Positions 2,636-52,397 of a DNA stretch of 64,000 nucleotides are shown here, one piece after another (within the stretch, counting starts at the first letter, position 1; each line of letters begins with the position of its first letter). The notes beneath the pieces are model-generated. The model was not told the origin of the DNA. It ran no database searches and saw only the letters and a list, made by a program, of their open reading frames with translations. Both the position numbers and the translations under genes were made by a program. Source of the stretch: an uncultured Desulfobacterales bacterium (GTDB taxonomy: Bacteria; Desulfobacterota; Desulfobacteria; Desulfobacterales; SpSt-501); assembly GCA_938048455.1 (NCBI GenBank), contig CALIUY010000005.1, positions 1 to 64,000 on the forward strand. The letters are read 5' to 3'.

Positions 2636-3973
2636 TCACCCGAGGACCGAGGGCCCGAAAAACTTGGCCGGGGCCCAGAGGATGATCTCGGGGATGAAGA
2701 TGCACAGGATCAGCCCGACCCACTGCAGGATGACGAAAGGCACGACTCCTTTGTAGATGTGGTAGATGGTGATCTCCGGCGGCGAAATGCCCTTCAGGTA
2801 GAAAAGCGAGTAGCCGAACGGCGGCGTGAGGAAGGCCATCTGCAGGTTCACGCAGATGAGGGTGGCAAACCAGAGGCCGTTGAAGCCGAGCTCCTGGCTG
2901 ACGGGGGTGAAGATCGGGATGACGATCAAGAGAATCCCCAGCCAGTCGAGGAAGCAGCCGAGGAAGAAGACGATCGCCATCATGACGAAGAGCAGCGCGA
3001 TCGGGGGAAGCTTCGTTCCCAGCATGAAGTTGCTGATCGCATCCCCGCCTCCCAAGCCCATGAAGACCGCCTGGAAGGCGTTTCCTCCCAGAAAGAGGGT
3101 CATGATCATCGAGGTCGTGATCGTGGTCGACCAGCAGGCCTCTTTCATCATCTTCCAGGAAAACTTGCCGTAGCCGATGGTCATGATCACGGCTCCGAGC
3201 ACCCCCATTCCGGCCGCCTCGGTCGGAGTGGCGATTCCGGCGACGATGCTGCCGAGCACGATGAGCACGAGAATGATCGGCGGGACGATCGATTTGGCGA
3301 ACATCGCCGCCTTCTGGGCGCCGCTGTGGCTTCCGCTTGTCTCGGCCGGACCGTATTCGGGTTTGATCAGGCAGAGGACGATGATGTAGGCGATGTAGAG
3401 CGCCGAGAGGAGAAAGCCGGGCCCGAAGGCGGCGGCGTAGAGCCAGCCGACCGAGATCTGGCTCAGGCTGCCGTAGACCACCAGCATGATGCTCGGCGGG
3501 ATGAGGATTCCGAGGGTTCCCCCGGCGGTGATGCAACCCGCGATCAGCGGGATGTTGTAGCCCGCGCGCAAAAGGGCGGGGATGGCGAGCAACCCGATCG
3601 AGACGACGGTGGCGCCGACCACGCCCGCGGTGGCGGAAAAGATCGTGCAGGCGATGATGACCGCGATTCCCAGCCCGCCGCGCAATCTGCCCATGACGAT
3701 GTGCATGGTCTCGAAGAGCCGCTCGGCGATCCCCGAGGCGTCGAGCACCTGGGCCATCATGATGAAGAGCGGGACGGCGACCAGGACGTACTCCTCCATC
3801 ACCCCGTAGGCGCGGTTGGCGAGAAGGGCGAGCACGGCGTCGATCGAGCCCCCCCAGCCGATGACCCCGAAGACGACGCCCAGCAGCCCCAAGGTGAAGG
3901 CGAGCGGGTGGCCTAACAGGAGCCCCACGAAGAGCGTGAAGAACATGACGACGGCGAGGGTTTCCGGGCTCAT
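2636..3973 (-). CDS. dctM: TRAP transporter large permease (DctM type)
   Basis: This is a 445-residue polytopic membrane protein with about 12 hydrophobic segments and family hallmarks such as the N-terminal LAVVMFFTLFVGLLLGHPLA and GGTLGILIPPSIMLVVYG. It forms the Na+-dependent translocation channel of a TRAP uptake system with the small permease and the periplasmic binding protein encoded next to it. The start was chosen at MSPETL, preceded by GGGGGAGAA and overlapping the dctQ stop codon (ATGA), which implies translational coupling. A longer upstream frame exists but lies inside dctQ. Confidence 0.95.
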   Translation of the reverse strand: MSPETLAVVMFFTLFVGLLLGHPLAFTLGLLGVVFGVIGWGGSIDAVLALLANRAYGVMEEYVLVAVPLFIMMAQVLDASGIAERLFETMHIVMGRLRGGLGIAVIIACTIFSATAGVVGATVVSIGLLAIPALLRAGYNIPLIAGCITAGGTLGILIPPSIMLVVYGSLSQISVGWLYAAAFGPGFLLSALYIAYIIVLCLIKPEYGPAETSGSHSGAQKAAMFAKSIVPPIILVLIVLGSIVAGIATPTEAAGMGVLGAVIMTIGYGKFSWKMMKEACWSTTITTSMIMTLFLGGNAFQAVFMGLGGGDAISNFMLGTKLPPIALLFVMMAIVFFLGCFLDWLGILLIVIPIFTPVSQELGFNGLWFATLICVNLQMAFLTPPFGYSLFYLKGISPPEITIYHIYKGVVPFVILQWVGLILCIFIPEIILWAPAKFFGPSVLG

Positions 3974-4473
3974 AGCTTCTCCCCCTTCAGCTGGTACCAC
4001 TCTTTGACGAAGTTCGCGAACCCTTGGAGGAAGAGCAGGAAGAGCGATACCGGGATCACGGTCTTGTAGGGGTAGAGCGGCGGCTTCCAGGCGCTCCAGC
4101 TGTGCTCCCAGTTGGTCCAGGACTTGGCCGCATACTCGGTTCCGGCCCACAGGAGCGCCCCCACGAAGGGGACGAAGACGAGCCAGTAGGTGATCAGGCG
4201 CAGCACGAGCTGCGCCTTGGGGGGGAGCTGGAGGGTGATGACGTCGATGCGCACGTGCCGGTCGAGGCAGAGGGTCGCCGCCATGGCCATCATGTAGTTG
4301 AAGCCGTAGAGGTAGATCGTCACCTCGAAGGCCCAGACGGTCGGCATGTTGAAGAGCTTGCGCATGAAGACCTCGTAGCAGACGACGAGGAAAAGCGGGA
4401 TCATCGCATAGGAAGTGACCCGGCCGACGAAGAGGTTGAAGGCATCGACGGCGCGGACGAAGGATTTGAGCAT
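3970..4473 (-). CDS. dctQ: TRAP transporter small permease (DctQ type)
   Basis: The 167-residue protein has four hydrophobic segments, as expected for the small TRAP membrane subunit that packs against DctM. The N-terminal FNLFVGRVTSYAMIPLF and the central YMMAMAATLCLDRHVRIDV are typical family signatures. It overlaps dctM by 4 nt (ATGA). A strong stem-loop at 4510-4543 separates it from dctP upstream. Confidence 0.92.
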   Translation of the reverse strand: MLKSFVRAVDAFNLFVGRVTSYAMIPLFLVVCYEVFMRKLFNMPTVWAFEVTIYLYGFNYMMAMAATLCLDRHVRIDVITLQLPPKAQLVLRLITYWLVFVPFVGALLWAGTEYAAKSWTNWEHSWSAWKPPLYPYKTVIPVSLFLLFLQGFANFVKEWYQLKGEKL

Positions 4474-4553: not shown

Positions 4554-5720
4554 TTACTGCAGCAGGCGTCCTTTCAGGACGTCTTCCTTCGGCCAGGGGG
4601 CCACGCGGCCGCGCAGATCACGCCACTTCGCATATTCGCGCTTGAATTCTTCCTGCGAGTCGAGAACCTTCTTCACGTCCGGGTTCTTCGCCGCCAGCTC
4701 GTCCAGGTAGGCGAAGGAGACCTTGGCGAACTCGACGATCGCCGCGTCGTCCATCTTCACGAACTCGGTGGATTTCTCCATGATTTTCAAAGCTTCGATG
4801 TTCAGGTTCTCCTGCCAGGCCCAGGCCCAGAGCTGGGTCTCCTTGGCCGCGGTCTCGACGATGATCTGCAGGTCCTCGGGCAGCTCGTCCCACTTCTTCT
4901 TGTTGAAGACGACATCGAACTGGCAGGAGGGTTGGTGGACGCCGGGCTCGATCACGTACTTGGTGATCTCGTGGAAGCCGGAGGGGATGTTCGCGGCCGG
5001 GGTGCTGAACTCGCAGGCGTCGATGACGCCGCGCTCGAGGGCGAGGTAGATCTCCGGACCGGGAAGCGGGGTGACCGAGACCCCCATGCGGGTGAGGATG
5101 TCCATGTACCAGCCGACCGTGCGCACCTTCATGCCTTTGAAGTCGTCGAGCTTGGTCGCCTTCTTGTTCGAGTGCAGGCCGAGCTCCTGGCCGACGTTGC
5201 CGCAGAAGAAGGGCACCAGCCCGTAGCGGCCGTAGAGCTCGTCGAACATCTCCTTTCCGCCGCGCTCGTAGTACCAGATGTTGTAGCCCTCGGCGTCCAG
5301 TCCGAAGGGGACGGAGGCGAAGGCGACGAAGGCCTCGTTTCGGCCTTTCCAGTAGCCGGGCCAGGAATGGAAGGCATCGAGCGTTCCCTTGGCGGTCGCC
5401 TCGAAGATCTCCATCGCCGGGACGATCGCGCCGGTCGGGAAGACCTTGATGTTCAGCCGTCCGCCGGAGCAGCCGCGGACGGTGTCGGCGAAATGCATCG
5501 CCATGTCATGGAAGTTCAACCCCCCCCACGGGTCGCTCATGCGCCAGTTGAAGGTCTTGTTCGAGGTTTCGAACTTCTTGTTCGCCCACTCCTTGATGCG
5601 CTTGTCCTCGCCGAACTTCTCGATCTTTTTCTTCTGCTGGGCGAAACTATCGCCGGGAAGGGCCGCAACCAGGGCCGCGGCGGTGAAGACGACCAGCAAC
5701 GCGATGGCAAGTTTCTTCAT
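4554..5720 (-). CDS. dctP: TRAP transporter periplasmic solute-binding protein (DctP family)
   Basis: The 388-residue protein begins with a classical signal peptide (MKKLAIALLVVFTAAALVA, cleavage probably after SFA). The family core follows: WGGLNFHDMAMHFADTVRGCSGGRLNIKVFPTG, a mid-region LDDFKGMKVRT with the conserved Arg that usually contacts the substrate carboxylate, and GVIDACEFSTPAANIPSGFHEI. The subgroup with these features often carries 2-oxo or hydroxy acids and other monocarboxylates, but the ligand is not determined. GGGAGGAAAG precedes the ATG. Confidence 0.93.
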   Translation of the reverse strand: MKKLAIALLVVFTAAALVAALPGDSFAQQKKKIEKFGEDKRIKEWANKKFETSNKTFNWRMSDPWGGLNFHDMAMHFADTVRGCSGGRLNIKVFPTGAIVPAMEIFEATAKGTLDAFHSWPGYWKGRNEAFVAFASVPFGLDAEGYNIWYYERGGKEMFDELYGRYGLVPFFCGNVGQELGLHSNKKATKLDDFKGMKVRTVGWYMDILTRMGVSVTPLPGPEIYLALERGVIDACEFSTPAANIPSGFHEITKYVIEPGVHQPSCQFDVVFNKKKWDELPEDLQIIVETAAKETQLWAWAWQENLNIEALKIMEKSTEFVKMDDAAIVEFAKVSFAYLDELAAKNPDVKKVLDSQEEFKREYAKWRDLRGRVAPWPKEDVLKGRLLQ

Positions 5721-5849: not shown

Positions 5850-6158
5850 TCAGAAGTTGAGCGACCCCGGCCGCTTGAGCAGAAAATAACCGTCGGCCGG
5901 GGTCCGGGCGACGATTCCGGCTTGTAGCAGGGCCGCGACGGCCTTGGGCCGGAAATCGCGCAGGCCGATGCGGAAGAACTGGGTCCGGGCGTAGGGCAGC
6001 GCGACCGCCGTGTCGGCGCTGTAGGCCTTGCGGCGGTCGAGATCGGCGACCACCCAGCGCGCCGCGCGCTTGATGCGCCAGCCTACGACCATCTGGGTGA
6101 GCACATACACCACGACCAGAAGGAGCAGGCCGAGAATGATCTGCACCGTTTCGGGCAT
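5850..6158 (-). CDS. Small single-pass membrane protein of unknown function
   Basis: The 102-residue protein has one N-terminal transmembrane segment (about residues 5-26, QIILGLLLLVVVYVLTQMVV) followed by a basic stretch (RIKRAARW), which suggests N-out/C-in topology with a cytoplasmic domain of about 70 residues. The soluble part (FRPKAVAALLQAGIVARTPADGYFLL) looks like a helix followed by a small beta-wing and could be winged-helix-like, but I do not recognise the family. AGGA precedes the ATG. It lies between the SDR gene and dctP in the same direction, so it is probably co-expressed with the uptake system. Confidence 0.72.
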   Translation of the reverse strand: MPETVQIILGLLLLVVVYVLTQMVVGWRIKRAARWVVADLDRRKAYSADTAVALPYARTQFFRIGLRDFRPKAVAALLQAGIVARTPADGYFLLKRPGSLNF

Positions 6159-6235: not shown

Positions 6236-7075
6236 TCAGTAAGTCAAGACGACACCGCCGTCGAAGAGCAGATCCCCGCCGACCAGGAAGCGTGCATGGC
6301 GGGAGAAACCGAAAAGGAAAAGGTTCGCCACTTCGATCGGGTTCATCATCTCCTTGATGCGCGATTTTCCGAGCATGACCTCGCGCACCACCTCCTCGGG
6401 GGTGATGCCGCGTTGGGCGGCCTGGGCCGGGATCTGGTTCAGCGCCAGCGGCGTTTTGATGAAGCCCGTGCTCACCGTGAAGGAGCGGATCCTGCCCTCC
6501 CCCTCGGCCGAGATGGACTGGGCGAGCGCGCGCAGGCCGAACTTGGTGATGTTGTAGACAGGTTTGTTTTTGGTGCAGATGTGGGCGTGGATCGAGGCCA
6601 TGTGGCCGATCACGCCCGTTCCGCCGGGGCTGTTGCGCATGTGCGGGATCACGAGCTTGGAGAGCAGAAAGGGCGCGCGCAGCATCAGGCGCTGCATCCG
6701 GTCGTACATGTCCATGGGGAAGTTTTCGATGCTGTCGATGTGCTGGATGCCGGCGATGTTCGCGAGAAACTTGATCGCCCCCAGGCGGGCGGCGTCGGCG
6801 ACACAGCGGCCGACCTCCTCGTCGTCCAAGAGATCGCAACGCATGAAGATCATCTGCCCGCCGAGATCCCGGGCCATTTTTTGCGTTTTTTTGCCTTCCT
6901 TTTCGTTGATGTCGAGCCCGACGGTCATGAGCTGGTTGGCCGCGGCGGCGATCGCCGTCGCCCGGCCGATTCCCGTGCCGGCGCCGGTCACGATGCAGAC
7001 GTTCTGAACGCAGAAGTCCTTGTCCTGGAGGGTCAGGATCTGGTCGGGGGTGATTTCCGGCTCGCGAATTTCCAT
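6236..7075 (-). CDS. Short-chain dehydrogenase, 3-hydroxybutyrate dehydrogenase-like
   Basis: The 279-residue classical SDR carries the cofactor motif TGAGTGIG (residues 30-37). After the second strand comes GLDIN, whose Asp favours NAD over NADP. The structural motif is NIAGIQHIDSIENFP, and the catalytic triad is Ser161, Tyr174 and Lys178 (YNITK). The AGIQH stretch is strongly reminiscent of D-3-hydroxybutyrate dehydrogenases. An N-terminal extension of about 20 residues precedes the Rossmann fold. GGGAGGA lies upstream of the ATG. It is the first gene of the leftward TRAP operon and lies about 145 nt from the predicted sigma-54 start site. The likely job is interconversion of a 3-hydroxy acid and its 3-oxo acid. 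Confidence 0.85.
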   Translation of the reverse strand: MEIREPEITPDQILTLQDKDFCVQNVCIVTGAGTGIGRATAIAAAANQLMTVGLDINEKEGKKTQKMARDLGGQMIFMRCDLLDDEEVGRCVADAARLGAIKFLANIAGIQHIDSIENFPMDMYDRMQRLMLRAPFLLSKLVIPHMRNSPGGTGVIGHMASIHAHICTKNKPVYNITKFGLRALAQSISAEGEGRIRSFTVSTGFIKTPLALNQIPAQAAQRGITPEEVVREVMLGKSRIKEMMNPIEVANLFLFGFSRHARFLVGGDLLFDGGVVLTY

Positions 7076-7230: not shown

Positions 7231-7246
7231 AGCAAATCCTGCGCCA
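7231..7246 (-). promoter_or_regulatory. Sigma-54 (-24/-12) promoter for the leftward SDR-TRAP-dehydrogenase operon
   Basis: Reading the minus strand: TGGCGCA (7246-7240), four bases, then TTGCT (7235-7231). The GG and GC dinucleotides are 10 nt apart, exactly as in the RpoN consensus TGGCACG-N4-TTGCW. Transcription would start near 7220, leaving a leader of about 145 nt before the SDR gene. It mirrors a second sigma-54 site at 7727-7742 on the other strand. Confidence 0.75.
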
Positions 7247-7726
7247 GTGCCCGGTAAAAACCGAGCCGAAATCCACGTAGAAATTTTTCGCTGCAATTTA
7301 TTTGGGTTATGCGGAATTCCCCTCATGCCGGACTCTGCTGCAAGATCCTAATCGCCCCAAAAAACGTATCAAATAATATACATGTCACCTTTTGCTACTT
7401 TTTAGGCCTCACTTTGAGGTTGGAAATAGAAGAGTAGTGAAGAATAACGAGTAAAAACAATGGATAAAAATCGTGATGCCCCAAAACAGCATTTTATTTT
7501 GTATCAATTAGAATACACTTCAACCGCGATCTTGCCGCTCGTTGCAAGCCTTTTCCCCCGGCCATGGTCAGCCGAAATTGTAGGTCAACACTTAAATTAC
7601 AACGAGTTGGGCTGGGATGCGGCCCGCGGCGACACCCCTCCGGATGCCGCCACGGGGGGAAGTCGGCGGAGGATTCAAAATCAAATCAACTAATTGTTTT
7701 TATGAATAATCCTTGATGTCCTAAAA
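7247..7726. promoter_or_regulatory. AT-rich divergent control region between two sigma-54 promoters
   Basis: This 480-nt stretch has no convincing gene, and much of it (about 7260-7560 and 7670-7726) is far richer in A+T than the rest of the window. It separates the two divergent RpoN-type promoters, so it should hold the upstream activator sites and bend sites (IHF-like) needed for enhancer-binding proteins. A visible inverted repeat is CCTCA-CTT-TGAGG (7407-7419). An open frame of 77 codons at 7460-7693 has atypical composition and no ribosome binding site, and is not called. No activator gene is present nearby. Confidence 0.55.
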
Positions 7727-7742
7727 TGGCATGTTAATTGCT
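7727..7742 (+). promoter_or_regulatory. Sigma-54 (-24/-12) promoter for the CoA-transferase operon
   Basis: TGGCATG (7727-7733), four bases (TTAA), then TTGCT (7738-7742). The invariant GG (7728-7729) and GC (7740-7741) are separated by 10 nt, matching the RpoN consensus with one substitution in the TGGCACG element. The expected transcription start is near 7753, about 50 nt before the ATG at 7804. Confidence 0.8.
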
Positions 7743-7803: not shown

Positions 7804-8787
7804 ATGAAGGTTCTCGATCAGGGTTTGAATCCGGTTTTCATGGATCCCGACCCGGACAAGGCGCGGGAGTTCTTCCGCCAAAAGCCCCGGGCGATGGTCG
7901 ACAAGCGCATGACCGAAAAGGAGGTCGTCGAAAAATTCATCCCCGACGGCTGCTACCTCGGCATCGGCGGCTTCGGCGCCAACCGCATTCCCACCGCGGT
8001 GATCCACGAAATTTTGCGGGCGCGCCGGAAACATTTAGGCTTTCTGGGCCACACCTCGACCCACGATTTCCAGCTGCTCTGCGCCGGCAAATGTTTCAAC
8101 CGCCTCGACGCCGCCTACATCGTCGGCCTCGAAGCCCGCGGGCTGTCGCCCAATGCGCGGCGCTACATGGAATCGGGCGAGGTGAAGGTCTGCGAATGGA
8201 CGAACTACTCGCTCGCCGCGCGCCTTCGGGCCGCGGCCGAGGGCGTCTCCTTCGCCATCGTGCGCTCGATGCTCGGCACCGACACCTTCCGCATGTCGGG
8301 GGCCAAGGTGATCGAGTGCCCCTTCACGGGCAAGAAATTCGCCGCGGTTCCGGCCCTCTGGCCGGATGTGGTCGTGATCCATGTGCACGAGGCCGACATG
8401 TACGGCAACGCCGTCTTCCGCGGCATCTCGATCGCCGACATGGAGCTCGCGCGTGCGGCCAAACGGGTGATCATCACCGCCGAGCGGCTGGTCAACAATT
8501 TCACGATCCGCAACAACCCCACGGCGACCTCGATTCCCTTCTACCTTGTCGACGCCGTGGTGGAGGTCCCCTACGGGAGCTATCCGGGGAACATGCCCTA
8601 CCTCTACTTCTCCGACGAGGAACACCTCGCCGCGTGGATGAAGGCCGAAAAGGATCCCCGGGAGTTCGAGAAATTCCTCGACCACTACATCTACGGGGTT
8701 TCCTGCTTCGAGGAATACCTCGACCGTTGCGGCGGGTTGAAGAAACTCAAGCAGCTGCAGAAACTCGAGACCCTGGTCGAGAAGTGA
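7804..8787 (+). CDS. CoA-transferase family I, alpha subunit (glutaconate CoA-transferase subunit A type)
   Basis: The 327-residue protein contains the CoA-transferase I core: GCYLGIGGFGANRIPTAVIHEI with the glycine-rich loop, and further on HVHEADMYGNAVFRG. It is larger than AtoD/ScoA alpha subunits (about 220 residues) and matches glutaconate CoA-transferase subunit A in size. With the next gene it would move CoA between an acyl-CoA donor and a carboxylate. The start at MKVLDQ has GGAGGGCAGG just upstream; the frame is open 22 codons further back, but that would overlap the promoter leader. Confidence 0.9.
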   Translation: MKVLDQGLNPVFMDPDPDKAREFFRQKPRAMVDKRMTEKEVVEKFIPDGCYLGIGGFGANRIPTAVIHEILRARRKHLGFLGHTSTHDFQLLCAGKCFNRLDAAYIVGLEARGLSPNARRYMESGEVKVCEWTNYSLAARLRAAAEGVSFAIVRSMLGTDTFRMSGAKVIECPFTGKKFAAVPALWPDVVVIHVHEADMYGNAVFRGISIADMELARAAKRVIITAERLVNNFTIRNNPTATSIPFYLVDAVVEVPYGSYPGNMPYLYFSDEEHLAAWMKAEKDPREFEKFLDHYIYGVSCFEEYLDRCGGLKKLKQLQKLETLVEK

Positions 8788-8856
8788 GGCTGGCACGATC
8801 CGGAACCCCTTCCCGCGGCATCGGCTTCCGCGGAACCCCTTGAAGGAGTGGCGGCG

Positions 8857-9627
8857 ATGACATCCCAATACAACATGATGGAAATGATGATTTGCGTCGC
8901 TTCCCGTTTTCTTGAAGACGGCAAGACGGTCGCCGTCGGCACCGGCGCCCCCTGCGCCGCGGCGATGCTCGCCCAGAAGCTGCACTCGCCGAACCTGATC
9001 ATCCTCTTCGAGGCCGGAGGCGTGGCGCCGCTTTTGCCGCAGATGCCCATTTCCGTCGGCGATTCGCGGACCTTTTTCCGCGCGGTCATGGCGGCGGGCA
9101 TGAACGAGATGATGACCACCTGCTGCCGCGGGCAGGTCGATTACGCCTTTCTCGGCGGAGCGCAGATCGACAAGTACGGCAACATCAATTCCACCGTGGT
9201 CGGGGACTACGCCAAGCCCAAGGTGCGCTTCCCCGGAAGCGGCGGGGCGAACGATTTCGCCTCGTTCTGCTGGCGGACGATGATCATGACCGTGCACAGC
9301 AAGGCGCGCTTCGTGGAAAAATGCGATTTCGTCACCTCTCCCGGCTTTCTCACCGGCGCCGGGGCGCGCGAGGCGGCCGGGCTCCCGGAGGGTGGACCTT
9401 ACAAGATCATCACCGATCTGGCGGTGATGGGGTTCGACGAGGAGACCCGGGCGATGAAGGTCGAGTCCCTGCACCCCGGCGTCGAGCTGGACCAGGTACG
9501 CGCGGAAACGGGCTTCGAGCTTCTCGTGGCGAAGGATCTCGGCCGGACCGCGCCGCCGACCGACGAGGAGCTGCGCATTCTGCGGGAGGAGGTGGATCCC
9601 CTGCGCCTGGTGATCGGCCGCGCCTGA
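8857..9627 (+). CDS. CoA-transferase family I, beta subunit (glutaconate CoA-transferase subunit B type)
   Basis: This 256-residue partner of the preceding gene begins 69 nt downstream. It contains VAVGTGAPCAAAMLAQ and then LFEAGGVAPLLP, where the Glu of EAGG is in the position of the catalytic glutamate that forms the glutamyl-CoA thioester. A later QIDKYGNINSTVVGDY is typical of the family. AAGGAG lies 9 nt before the ATG at 8857; an in-frame GTG at 8848 overlaps that site and is unlikely. It is the last gene before the terminator at 9744. Confidence 0.9.
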   Translation: MTSQYNMMEMMICVASRFLEDGKTVAVGTGAPCAAAMLAQKLHSPNLIILFEAGGVAPLLPQMPISVGDSRTFFRAVMAAGMNEMMTTCCRGQVDYAFLGGAQIDKYGNINSTVVGDYAKPKVRFPGSGGANDFASFCWRTMIMTVHSKARFVEKCDFVTSPGFLTGAGAREAAGLPEGGPYKIITDLAVMGFDEETRAMKVESLHPGVELDQVRAETGFELLVAKDLGRTAPPTDEELRILREEVDPLRLVIGRA

Positions 9628-9743: not shown

Positions 9744-9781
9744 CCCCGTCCCGGCGCAATCGCCGGGACGGGGCTTTTTTT
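9744..9781 (+). terminator. Rho-independent terminator of the CoA-transferase operon
   Basis: A perfect 13-bp stem, CCCCGTCCCGGCG (9744-9756) with CGCCGGGACGGGG (9761-9773), a 4-nt loop and a following run of T from 9775. It lies 116 nt past the beta subunit stop codon and abuts the end of the convergent HerA-like gene. Confidence 0.92.
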
Positions 9782-12206
9782 AGCCGCTCTTCCAGGCGGG
9801 GACGGCCTCTCCGGCGGCATCGCGGCGGAACGGAACCCAGAGCAGGGCGAAGAAGGAGGGGACGAGTTCCCCGGCGGCGGGGGAAACGAGGATCTCTTCC
9901 GGGGGGGCGGCCTCCGGGTCGACGGAGACCTCGATCGCCGCGATGTCGGCCTCGAGGGCGGCCTCGAGCTCTGCGATCCGCTCGCGTACGGCGGCGGCGC
10001 TTTCCTCGGCCCGGGCCGCATCCATGCTTTCTTTGCGCAGCCGTCCGGCCGACTTGGCCGCGGTTCCGAGGCGCCCGGCCGAGGTTGCGCTCACGGCCCG
10101 GCGGCCGAGGAAGGCCCCCAGGATCGCCGTGCCGAAGGAGATCGCGGTTTCCACCTTCTTGGCGGCGAGTTGTTCCTTCTCCCGGGCCACGGCCTGCTCG
10201 GCCCGCAGCAGCCGCTCGCGCAGCACCGCGAAGCGCTCCGCGTAGCGACGGCGCAGGGCCTCGACGCGGCGGTCGCGTTCCTCGCGCCAGAGCTGCCCTC
10301 GCCGGGCGAGAAACTCGGCCCGGGACTCCCCCGGCCGGGAGATCGCACCGGTCTTCGGGCAGCGAAGCAGCCGAAGGGCAAGCCCCCGTCTGGCCCAGCG
10401 CGCAAGATCGCGCTTCCAGCCCTCGTAGGATTTCGCCTGGTGCGCGGCCGCGGGCAGCGCCCCGAAACGCCCTACGGCCGGAGGCCCTTTAGGGAAATCC
10501 GCCGGATCGAGATCCAGGGGGCGTGCTTGCTCCCAGTCGACGGGGGCCGCCTGCGCCGCGGAAAGAAAGGCCAAGAGCCCCACGCGGCGGGTGAAATCGA
10601 CCCCCAGCCTGCCGTTCGTGTGGCGCAGCTCCAGGCGGGCGAAGAGGGCGGGGGCGTATTCGAGTGTCTCCTGCGGGCTCTCCGGCGGAAGGGTGAAGAC
10701 CGGGATTCCCGGCGGCGAAAGCGGGGGGGAGCTTTCGGCTGCCGCCGAAGGGGGGATGTCCGGAGGGGCCGAAGGTGTCCCGGACGGCGTTTCCGGATGA
10801 CCTCCTTCCGATGACGACAGCCTCCGGATGTCCTCGCGGGTCATCGGGCCGCGGAGGTAGGAGAGGGTCCAGCGGGTCTGGAAGAGAAGCGGCTCGTTTT
10901 CCTTCACCCGGTGCAGCAGAAAGACGCGTTTTCCCAGCCCGGAGAGCATCCGCTCGAGCCCCCGGCGGTCGATGCCGCCGGCCGCCGCCCCCTCGAGGCC
11001 GGCCAGGACCCGCTGGCGGTCGGTCTCGGTCTGCAGCCTGCCGATGAACCAGGTGCCGGCGTTGGAAAGCCCTTTGTAGTCGAGATCCACGGGGTTCTGG
11101 GTGGCGAGCACGACCCCCAGCCCGAAAGCGCGGGCTTGTTTCAAAAGCGTCAAAAGCGGCGTCTTGGAAGGGGGGTTGGCGACCGGGGGAAAGAAACCGA
11201 AAATCTCGTCCAGGTAAAGGATCGCCCGCAGGCTCGCCGTTCCCGGCTGCGCGCGCATCCAGGCGATCGTTTCGATCAACAGCCGGGTGATGAAGAACAT
11301 GCGTTCGGCGTCGTCCAGGTGGGCGACCGTCAGGACGGCCGCCCGCGGGCGGCCGTCCTCGGTGTAAAGAAGCCTTCCCAGGTCGAGGGGGTCGCCCTCC
11401 GTCCAGGCTTCGAAGCCCGGCGCGGCGATGAGGTTGTTGAACCGCAGGGCGAGCGCGAAACGCTCTTTCGCGGGGAAGAAGGATTCGAGGTCGAGGATGC
11501 CCACGCGCCCGAAGGGCGGGTTCTGAATGCCGTGGACGAGGGCCGGAAGATCGAGGCTTCGCCCCTCGGCCCAGGCGGAGGAAAGCAGTTGGGCGACCAA
11601 AATGTGCTCGCGGCTCGTCACCGGATCGGCGGCGATCCCGACGAGGGCGAGAAGACCCGTCGTCGTCTGCTGCAGGTGCCCGCGCAGCAGGTCGCGCTCG
11701 GCACGCACGGCCTCGGGCGGCGGGGCGATTTTGCCGAGCAGGTTGATGGGACGCCCGGCGCGGCTTCCCGGGGTGTAGAGCGCAAACTCGGCCGACCGCC
11801 GCAGGAGCCGGATGCGCTCGGCGTCCTGGTCCCACTCGGCCAGACCTTTGCGCCACAGCGCGGCCTGGCGGGCGGCGAACTCCCGGCGGTCGAGCCCGGC
11901 GGTGACGGCGTCGGCCTCGCTCATCCAGGGGAGAAAGGCCTCGGCGGAAAGATCCGGCAGCGTGAGCAGCAGGTTCGGCAGATCGCCTTTGGGATCGACC
12001 GCGATCACCGGAACGCGGTCGATCAGGGCCTCTTCCAGAAGCGCGATCCCGAGACCGGTCTTTCCCGATCCGGTCATGCCGATGATCACCGCATGGGTGG
12101 TGAGATCCCGGGAGTCGTACAGCACGGCCTCGCCCCCGGGGGAGCCGGTCGCGGGATCGATCCTGCGGCCGAGGTAGAAGACACCGAGCTGTTCGAAGTG
12201 CTTCAT
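9780..12206 (-). CDS. HerA-like (DUF87/VirB4 class) ATPase with C-terminal coiled coil
   Basis: The 808-residue protein has Walker A GMTGSGKT at residues 43-50, the following VDPKGDLPNLL typical of HerA/FtsK-type ATPases, Walker B ILYLDEI near residue 330, and an ATQNPVDLDYKGL segment (sensor/Q motif) near 370. The region after 600 is rich in Arg, Glu and Ala and predicts long coiled coil, followed by a short beta domain. Related large proteins are annotated only as ATP-binding proteins. DNA translocation or a defence-related role is possible but not shown. AGGGG touches an ATG at 12212, whereas the ATG at 12206 has correct spacing, so the latter was chosen. Confidence 0.8.
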   Translation of the reverse strand: MKHFEQLGVFYLGRRIDPATGSPGGEAVLYDSRDLTTHAVIIGMTGSGKTGLGIALLEEALIDRVPVIAVDPKGDLPNLLLTLPDLSAEAFLPWMSEADAVTAGLDRREFAARQAALWRKGLAEWDQDAERIRLLRRSAEFALYTPGSRAGRPINLLGKIAPPPEAVRAERDLLRGHLQQTTTGLLALVGIAADPVTSREHILVAQLLSSAWAEGRSLDLPALVHGIQNPPFGRVGILDLESFFPAKERFALALRFNNLIAAPGFEAWTEGDPLDLGRLLYTEDGRPRAAVLTVAHLDDAERMFFITRLLIETIAWMRAQPGTASLRAILYLDEIFGFFPPVANPPSKTPLLTLLKQARAFGLGVVLATQNPVDLDYKGLSNAGTWFIGRLQTETDRQRVLAGLEGAAAGGIDRRGLERMLSGLGKRVFLLHRVKENEPLLFQTRWTLSYLRGPMTREDIRRLSSSEGGHPETPSGTPSAPPDIPPSAAAESSPPLSPPGIPVFTLPPESPQETLEYAPALFARLELRHTNGRLGVDFTRRVGLLAFLSAAQAAPVDWEQARPLDLDPADFPKGPPAVGRFGALPAAAHQAKSYEGWKRDLARWARRGLALRLLRCPKTGAISRPGESRAEFLARRGQLWREERDRRVEALRRRYAERFAVLRERLLRAEQAVAREKEQLAAKKVETAISFGTAILGAFLGRRAVSATSAGRLGTAAKSAGRLRKESMDAARAEESAAAVRERIAELEAALEADIAAIEVSVDPEAAPPEEILVSPAAGELVPSFFALLWVPFRRDAAGEAVPAWKSG

Positions 12207-12364
12207 GTTCATCCCCTGGCGGGCGGAGGGGAAAGAGAGGAAATCAGGCTTCCCGGCCGTTGATTAGCGGTTGCGGCTAGGGATGTCAAACGGGAAGAAA
12301 AGATGGAGCGAAAAAAGAGCGAACGGCTTTCCGGGTGCTTCCGGCGTGGACTTGAAGACGGAGC

Positions 12365-47128: not shown

Positions 47129-52397
<5,269 letters not shown>

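Follow-up and report, generated by a model that had tools for sequence, protein, structure and literature searches.

A predicted divergent sigma-54 control region between TRAP transporter and CoA-transferase operons in an uncultured Desulfobacterales bacterium

How are two operons controlled that point away from each other across a gap much richer in A+T than the DNA around it? The question is raised by contig CALIUY010000005.1 (assembly GCA_938048455.1) of an uncultured Desulfobacterales bacterium, of which positions 1–64,000 of the forward strand, hereafter the window, were analysed. The first-pass annotation had proposed that a divergent pair of sigma-54 promoters, dependent on an activator encoded elsewhere, controls a cluster of CoA-transferase, TRAP and hydroxyacid genes, and such genes do flank the gap, namely those for an SDR oxidoreductase and DctP, DctQ and DctM on the left and both subunits of a glutaconate-family CoA-transferase on the right. 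In the reading preferred here, the gap is likely to be a divergent sigma-54 control region, a conclusion that is well supported and ordinary in kind, and the region probably serves the use of small organic acids. The features on which the discussion draws are as follows (UAS, candidate enhancer dyad).

2636–3949, minus strand: TRAP large permease DctM, 5' end approximate (family search)
3970–4473, minus strand: TRAP small permease DctQ (family search)
4554–5720, minus strand: TRAP solute-binding protein DctP (family search)
5850–6158, minus strand: 102-aa ORF, conserved in the genus (comparison with relatives)
6236–7075, minus strand: first gene of the left operon, for an SDR oxidoreductase resembling 3-hydroxybutyrate dehydrogenases (family and structure searches)
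7231–7246, minus strand: predicted leftward sigma-54 -24/-12 box, TGGCGCA-GGAT-TTGCT (pattern match, weight matrix, counterparts in four relatives)
7247–7726, no strand: AT-rich control region between the predicted promoters (G+C content)
7365–7382, no strand: UAS1, CGTATCAAATAATATACA, 119 nt from the left -24 box
7500–7517, no strand: UAS2, TGTATCAATTAGAATACA, 210 nt from the right -24 box
7684–7696, plus strand: AATCAACTAATTG, which fits the IHF consensus WATCAAN4TTR exactly and separates UAS2 from the right promoter
7727–7742, plus strand: predicted rightward sigma-54 -24/-12 box, TGGCATG-TTAA-TTGCT (pattern match, weight matrix, 15–16 of 16 bases kept in five genomes)
7804–8787, plus strand: first gene of the right operon, for subunit A of a glutaconate-family CoA-transferase (family search)
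8848–9627, plus strand: CoA-transferase subunit B (family search, GctB alignment)

The two promoter elements and the AT-rich gap

Both elements read as first described, with the exact GG-N10-GC spacing of RpoN promoters and with divergent orientation, the left one departing from the TGGCAYR context by a G for A (TGGCGCA). Transcription is predicted to start at about 7753 on the right, with the CoA-transferase ATG 51 nt further on, and at about 7220 on the left, with the SDR ATG 145 nt further on. Across the 64 kb, only three GG-N10-GC 16-mers match the degenerate consensus at 12 of 12 positions: the two boxes and a site at 50922–50937 on the minus strand. This third site falls within a coding frame (read by eye) that has a cysteine-rich motif, and it is taken as a chance match. 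When the window was scanned with a sigma-54 weight matrix, hand-made on the model of the published consensus, the two boxes were again among the top three matches, the right box ranking first (17.7 bits), the in-gene site second (16.1 bits) and the left box third (14.7 bits); Markov-simulated sequences of 64 kb are expected to hold 0.0 matches at 17.7 bits and 0.27 at 14.7 bits. In the genome as a whole there are 11 copies of the strict pattern TGGCAYRN4TTGCW, versus two of the reversed control. The genome also carries rpoN, the absence of which the first-pass annotation had named as an observation that would speak against the promoters.

The gap itself is as distinct in composition as had been claimed, with 44.6% G+C versus 66.9% for the window; the lowest-G+C stretch of 480 nt (43.1%) is found at 7275, and the next that does not overlap it (53.8%) at 12160. 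A composition so unlike the rest of the window might point to AT-rich leftover DNA, from an old insertion or a decayed gene, in which the promoter matches are accidental. We consider this very improbable. AT-rich patches are also seen at several further sigma-54-like sites in the genome, which makes the island resemble an ordinary control region; in addition, the boxes are conserved inside otherwise diverged DNA, and sigma-54 sites at CoA-transferase genes are found in rpoN-bearing genomes versus none in actinobacteria lacking rpoN, as described below. A search of the island for RNA families found none, one sub-threshold match falling in the SDR gene, and an RNA element was rejected on this ground. 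Sigma-70 promoters in the gap were likewise rejected, since sigma-70-like sites are there no more frequent than expected by chance.

Conservation of the promoters in the genus and beyond

The same cluster, in which the SDR gene, the small ORF and the TRAP genes lie opposite the CoA-transferase, is found in five genomes of the genus: the present one (G000), G001 (L044/L175, on a contig that stops before CoA-transferase subunit B), G002 (L174), G003 (L043/L172) and G004 (L045/L173). In two incomplete genomes of the genus, G005 and G006, the cluster was not found. Their intergenic regions are 640–1820 nt long and 40–52% identical in pairs, yet the right box, which reads TGGCATGTTTATTGCT in four genomes and TGGCATGTTAATTGCT in G000 (15–16 of 16 bases identical), forms the block in which the alignment is most strongly conserved. 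The left box reads TGGCGCAGGATTTGCT, TGGCGCATGTTTTGCT, TGGCCTGGGATTTGCT, TGGCCCGATATTTGCT or TGGCCCAAGAATTGCT; its conservation is weaker in the variable -24 half, while TGGC and the TTGCT end are retained. A left site matching at 11 or more of 12 positions, in the right place and orientation, is present in all five genomes, where 0.03–0.08 would be expected per region. The -24/-12 elements have thus been kept in relatives while the surrounding DNA diverged, although a lack of such conservation had been foreseen as possible evidence against them.

The variability of the left box, together with its lower score and the long 5' leader predicted for the leftward transcript, is what would be expected if only the rightward sigma-54 promoter worked, the left operon being read from another promoter and the left match being incidental. 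This alternative appears improbable in view of the recurrence of the left site in 5/5 genomes, the maintenance of its distance to UAS1 and the chance-level frequency of sigma-70-like sites in the gap. A control region with two working sigma-54 promoters remains the preferred reading.

Beyond the genus, a sigma-54-like site lies 60–140 nt upstream of the CoA-transferase at six loci (L046, L049, L053, L054, L067 and L072), all of them from rpoN-bearing genomes, whereas 12 actinobacterial genomes with a CoA-transferase gene and without rpoN have no upstream site matching at 11 or more of 12 positions. Sigma-54 control of the CoA-transferase is not universal, because six other rpoN-bearing relatives (L047, L050, L051, L055, L062 and L064) show no sigma-54 site at this gene. 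An AtoE-family transporter (PF02667, short-chain fatty acid) adjoins the CoA-transferase divergently in L046, which additionally carries a leftward sigma-54 site, and in L072, and lies upstream of it in L067. This neighbour ties the CoA-transferase to the use of short-chain acids and supports the comparison with the ato and hbc regulons drawn earlier. Comparison of these loci suggests that sigma-54 control of this CoA-transferase is common to several rpoN-bearing lineages, and that the neighbouring transporter differs, being either of AtoE type or of TRAP type with an SDR. Upstream of the CoA-transferase -24 box in L049, L053 and L054 lies another dyad-like sequence (such as TTTTACATCATGTAAAA in L053), which suggests that lineages differ in their enhancer and perhaps also in their activator. 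Genes for enhancer-binding proteins (EBPs) near the distant CoA-transferase loci L084, L115 and L116 were dropped from consideration, as there is no sigma-54 site at the CoA-transferase there.

Candidate enhancer dyads and the protein that may bind them

Conserved palindromes, for which the first-pass annotation had proposed aligning the intergenic region among relatives, are present as TGTATC-N6-GATACA dyads at conserved distances from the promoters, a new finding which makes them candidate enhancers. A repeat search pointed to GTATCAAATAATATAC at 7366 and GTATCAATTAGAATAC at 7501. In its own genome, GTATC-N7-ATAC occurs in three places only, two of them in the island. The pattern GTATC-N6-GATAC, matched at 9 or more of 10 positions, has seven sites in the five intergenic regions versus about 0.06 expected from Markov sequences, an expectation that overstates the case because the motif was derived from the same five regions. 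The spacing is a stronger argument than the counts. Measured from the 16-bp promoter core, the distance between UAS1 and the left box is 119 nt in both G000 and G002, 124 nt in G003 and 132 nt in G001; that between UAS2 and the right box is 210 nt in both G000 and G001, 207 nt in G003, 208 nt in G002 and 217 nt in G004. Some of these dyads match at 8/10 only (UAS1 in G002 and G001, UAS2 in G003 and G001), and G001 has a better dyad closer to its right promoter. A second dyad (7/10 or better) follows exactly 18 nt after UAS1 in G001, G002 and G003. In addition, the IHF consensus match at 7684–7696 has an expectation of 0.04; the strict consensus was not found in the intergenic regions of the relatives.

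In G002, a gene of about 250 codons for a GntR/FCD-family regulator lies between UAS1 and UAS2 (L174:7319-8083; G002:C74:86318-87082). Both UAS-promoter distances are intact despite this insertion, as though separate enhancers served the two promoters. This GntR protein was rejected as a common regulator, its best match elsewhere showing 36% identity.

The genome encodes 29 strong EBP domains (sigma-54-activator domain, score of at least 199 bits), to which three weaker matches can be added. All 29 strong ones are on other contigs and none is on that of the window (C5), which agrees with the earlier statement that no activator gene is in the window. Identification of the activator through linkage failed, no TGTATC-type dyad being found within 3 kb of any EBP gene. 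Among 20 EBPs scanned, the 10 of the response-regulator-type batch included, none reaches the cut-off of the AtoC equivalog model (best 514 versus 714 bits). The suggestion of an activator of AtoC/HbcR type is therefore an analogy and no identification; the putative target genes are of families related to those for short-chain acid or 3-hydroxybutyrate use.

A different assignment of the dyads was weighed, which accepts the sigma-54 promoters but has the dyads serve as operators for some other regulator, either a repressor or a global activator, while the EBP binds elsewhere in the island. No EBP gene lies near any dyad, a GntR gene lies within the control region of G002, and the same dyad is found upstream of a gene with sigma-70-type promoters and without a sigma-54 site. 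The last observation concerns a kamA-family gene. A perfect TGTATC-N6-GATACA stands upstream of it in G000 (L153:1500-1517; G000:C1:61465-61482) and G003 (L157:1502) and imperfect copies do so in G004 and G005, so that the dyad is present in 4/7 genus genomes altogether. Across all seven, two sigma-70-type promoters are conserved at this locus and a sigma-54 site (GG-N10-GC) is not, and the kamA-like gene was rejected as a sigma-54 target on these grounds. The binder would then either act at both kinds of promoter or not be an EBP. However, the dyads lie 119–217 nt upstream of the promoters at conserved spacing, where enhancers and not operators are expected, and they occur in 5/5 genomes while the GntR gene is confined to G002. 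We regard the operator reading as unlikely, if less so than the two alternatives considered above.

Further evidence comes from a sulfopropanediol locus of the same genome (L195:10680-11400; G000:C12), where a TRAP operon lies opposite a (2S)-3-sulfopropanediol dehydratase gene with divergent sigma-54-like sites. The enzyme matches family NF048011 at 1589 bits (cut-off 1000), which ruled out an isethionate lyase. As in the window, this hpsG-type locus has TRAP genes on one side and an enzyme gene on the other, an AT-rich gap and dyads of about 18 bp; its conserved TGTTGC...GCAACA dyads are partly in tandem, 20 nt apart. The two differ in their half-sites (TGTTGC versus TGTATC) and in the gene for a PAS-AAA-HTH EBP that adjoins the TRAP genes at L195. 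The dyads of this EBP-linked locus (TGT-N12-ACA) are close in size to those of the window, which favours an EBP as the binder of the latter. The L195 EBP was dropped as a direct activator candidate, since the TGTATC-like site TGTATCAGATGCTATGCA there is unconserved and the conserved dyads are of TGTTGC type.

A single regulator of TGTATC-N6-GATACA might also combine both roles, as a distant activator of sigma-54 promoters here and at the sigma-70-type promoters of the kamA-like gene, the GntR gene of G002 having been added inside the control region. TyrR and PhhR, whose sites share the dyad geometry, offer a comparison for a regulator serving both promoter kinds. We hold this dual role to be improbable; if true, it would link small-acid use to another pathway.

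Flanking genes, proposed mechanism and known systems

The closest solved structures to the SDR are 3-hydroxybutyrate dehydrogenases; against the NCBIfam models of the 3-hydroxybutyrate dehydrogenase subfamily it scores 176 bits, below the cut-offs of 258–307. The closest TRAP binding proteins to DctP include binders of keto acids and lactate. The 102-aa ORF between the two genes is 55–94% identical within the genus and has no match in Pfam or NCBIfam. The CoA-transferase subunits resemble GctA and GctB and belong by match to the glutaconate CoA-transferase family. The glutamate of the VESG motif in GctB, which we take to be catalytic, has an aligned glutamate in subunit B, and this alignment argues for transferase chemistry. 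Convergent to this operon, at 9780–12212 on the minus strand, is a gene whose 810-aa product carries a P-loop motif (GMTGSGKT) and has no Pfam match at 1e-5; the protein is conserved in two or more relatives.

We propose that RNA polymerase with RpoN would sit as a closed complex on both -24/-12 boxes, and that an EBP encoded elsewhere in the genome, responding to a small organic acid, would bind the dyads near each promoter. The bound protein would loop to the polymerase, perhaps aided by IHF on the right, and spend ATP to open both promoters. The leftward transcript would supply the SDR and the TRAP importer, and the rightward one the two-subunit CoA-transferase, so that the acid may be taken up, oxidised and activated to its CoA ester. 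Activation of both operons by an unlinked EBP, by analogy with ato- and hbc-type regulons, is in our judgement likely. What the sequence shows are the promoter boxes and their conservation, rpoN, the dyads with their spacing and the gene families; binding of the dyads by an EBP, the inducer, the substrate, the identity of the activator and transcription itself are inferred.

Among experimentally studied systems, the layout is most closely matched by the orp region of Desulfovibrio vulgaris, whose divergent operons have been shown to be controlled by sigma-54, IHF and the EBP DVU2106, which acts at palindromic sites (PMC3897727). There, too, two divergent sigma-54 promoters share a gap with palindromic sites, and an IHF-like site lies between activator site and promoter; in contrast, the DVU2106 gene belongs to the orp cluster, whereas the EBP predicted for the window is unlinked, its presumed target genes bear no relation to the orp genes, and strict agreement with the IHF consensus is unconserved. 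In Escherichia coli, the short-chain-acid CoA-transferase operon atoDAEB is under the EBP system AtoS-AtoC (PMC3118216). It shares with the present loci a CoA-transferase and, in L046, L067 and L072, the AtoE-family transporter beside a homologous one, but the window differs in its glutaconate-family enzyme, TRAP importer, SDR and divergent operons, and in having no linked AtoSC. HbcR of Pseudomonas, an RpoN-dependent EBP activated by (R)-3-hydroxybutyrate, controls 3-hydroxybutyrate catabolism (PMC10482368), and the likeness to its regulon consists of predicted sigma-54 control and a gene resembling those of 3-hydroxybutyrate dehydrogenases; no HbcR was identified here.

As a mechanism, this is textbook knowledge. 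Genomes of this group encode dozens of EBPs, most of them without known targets, and the window presents a testable regulon with defined promoters and candidate enhancers at fixed spacing, the two halves of whose control region are naturally separated by the insertion in G002.
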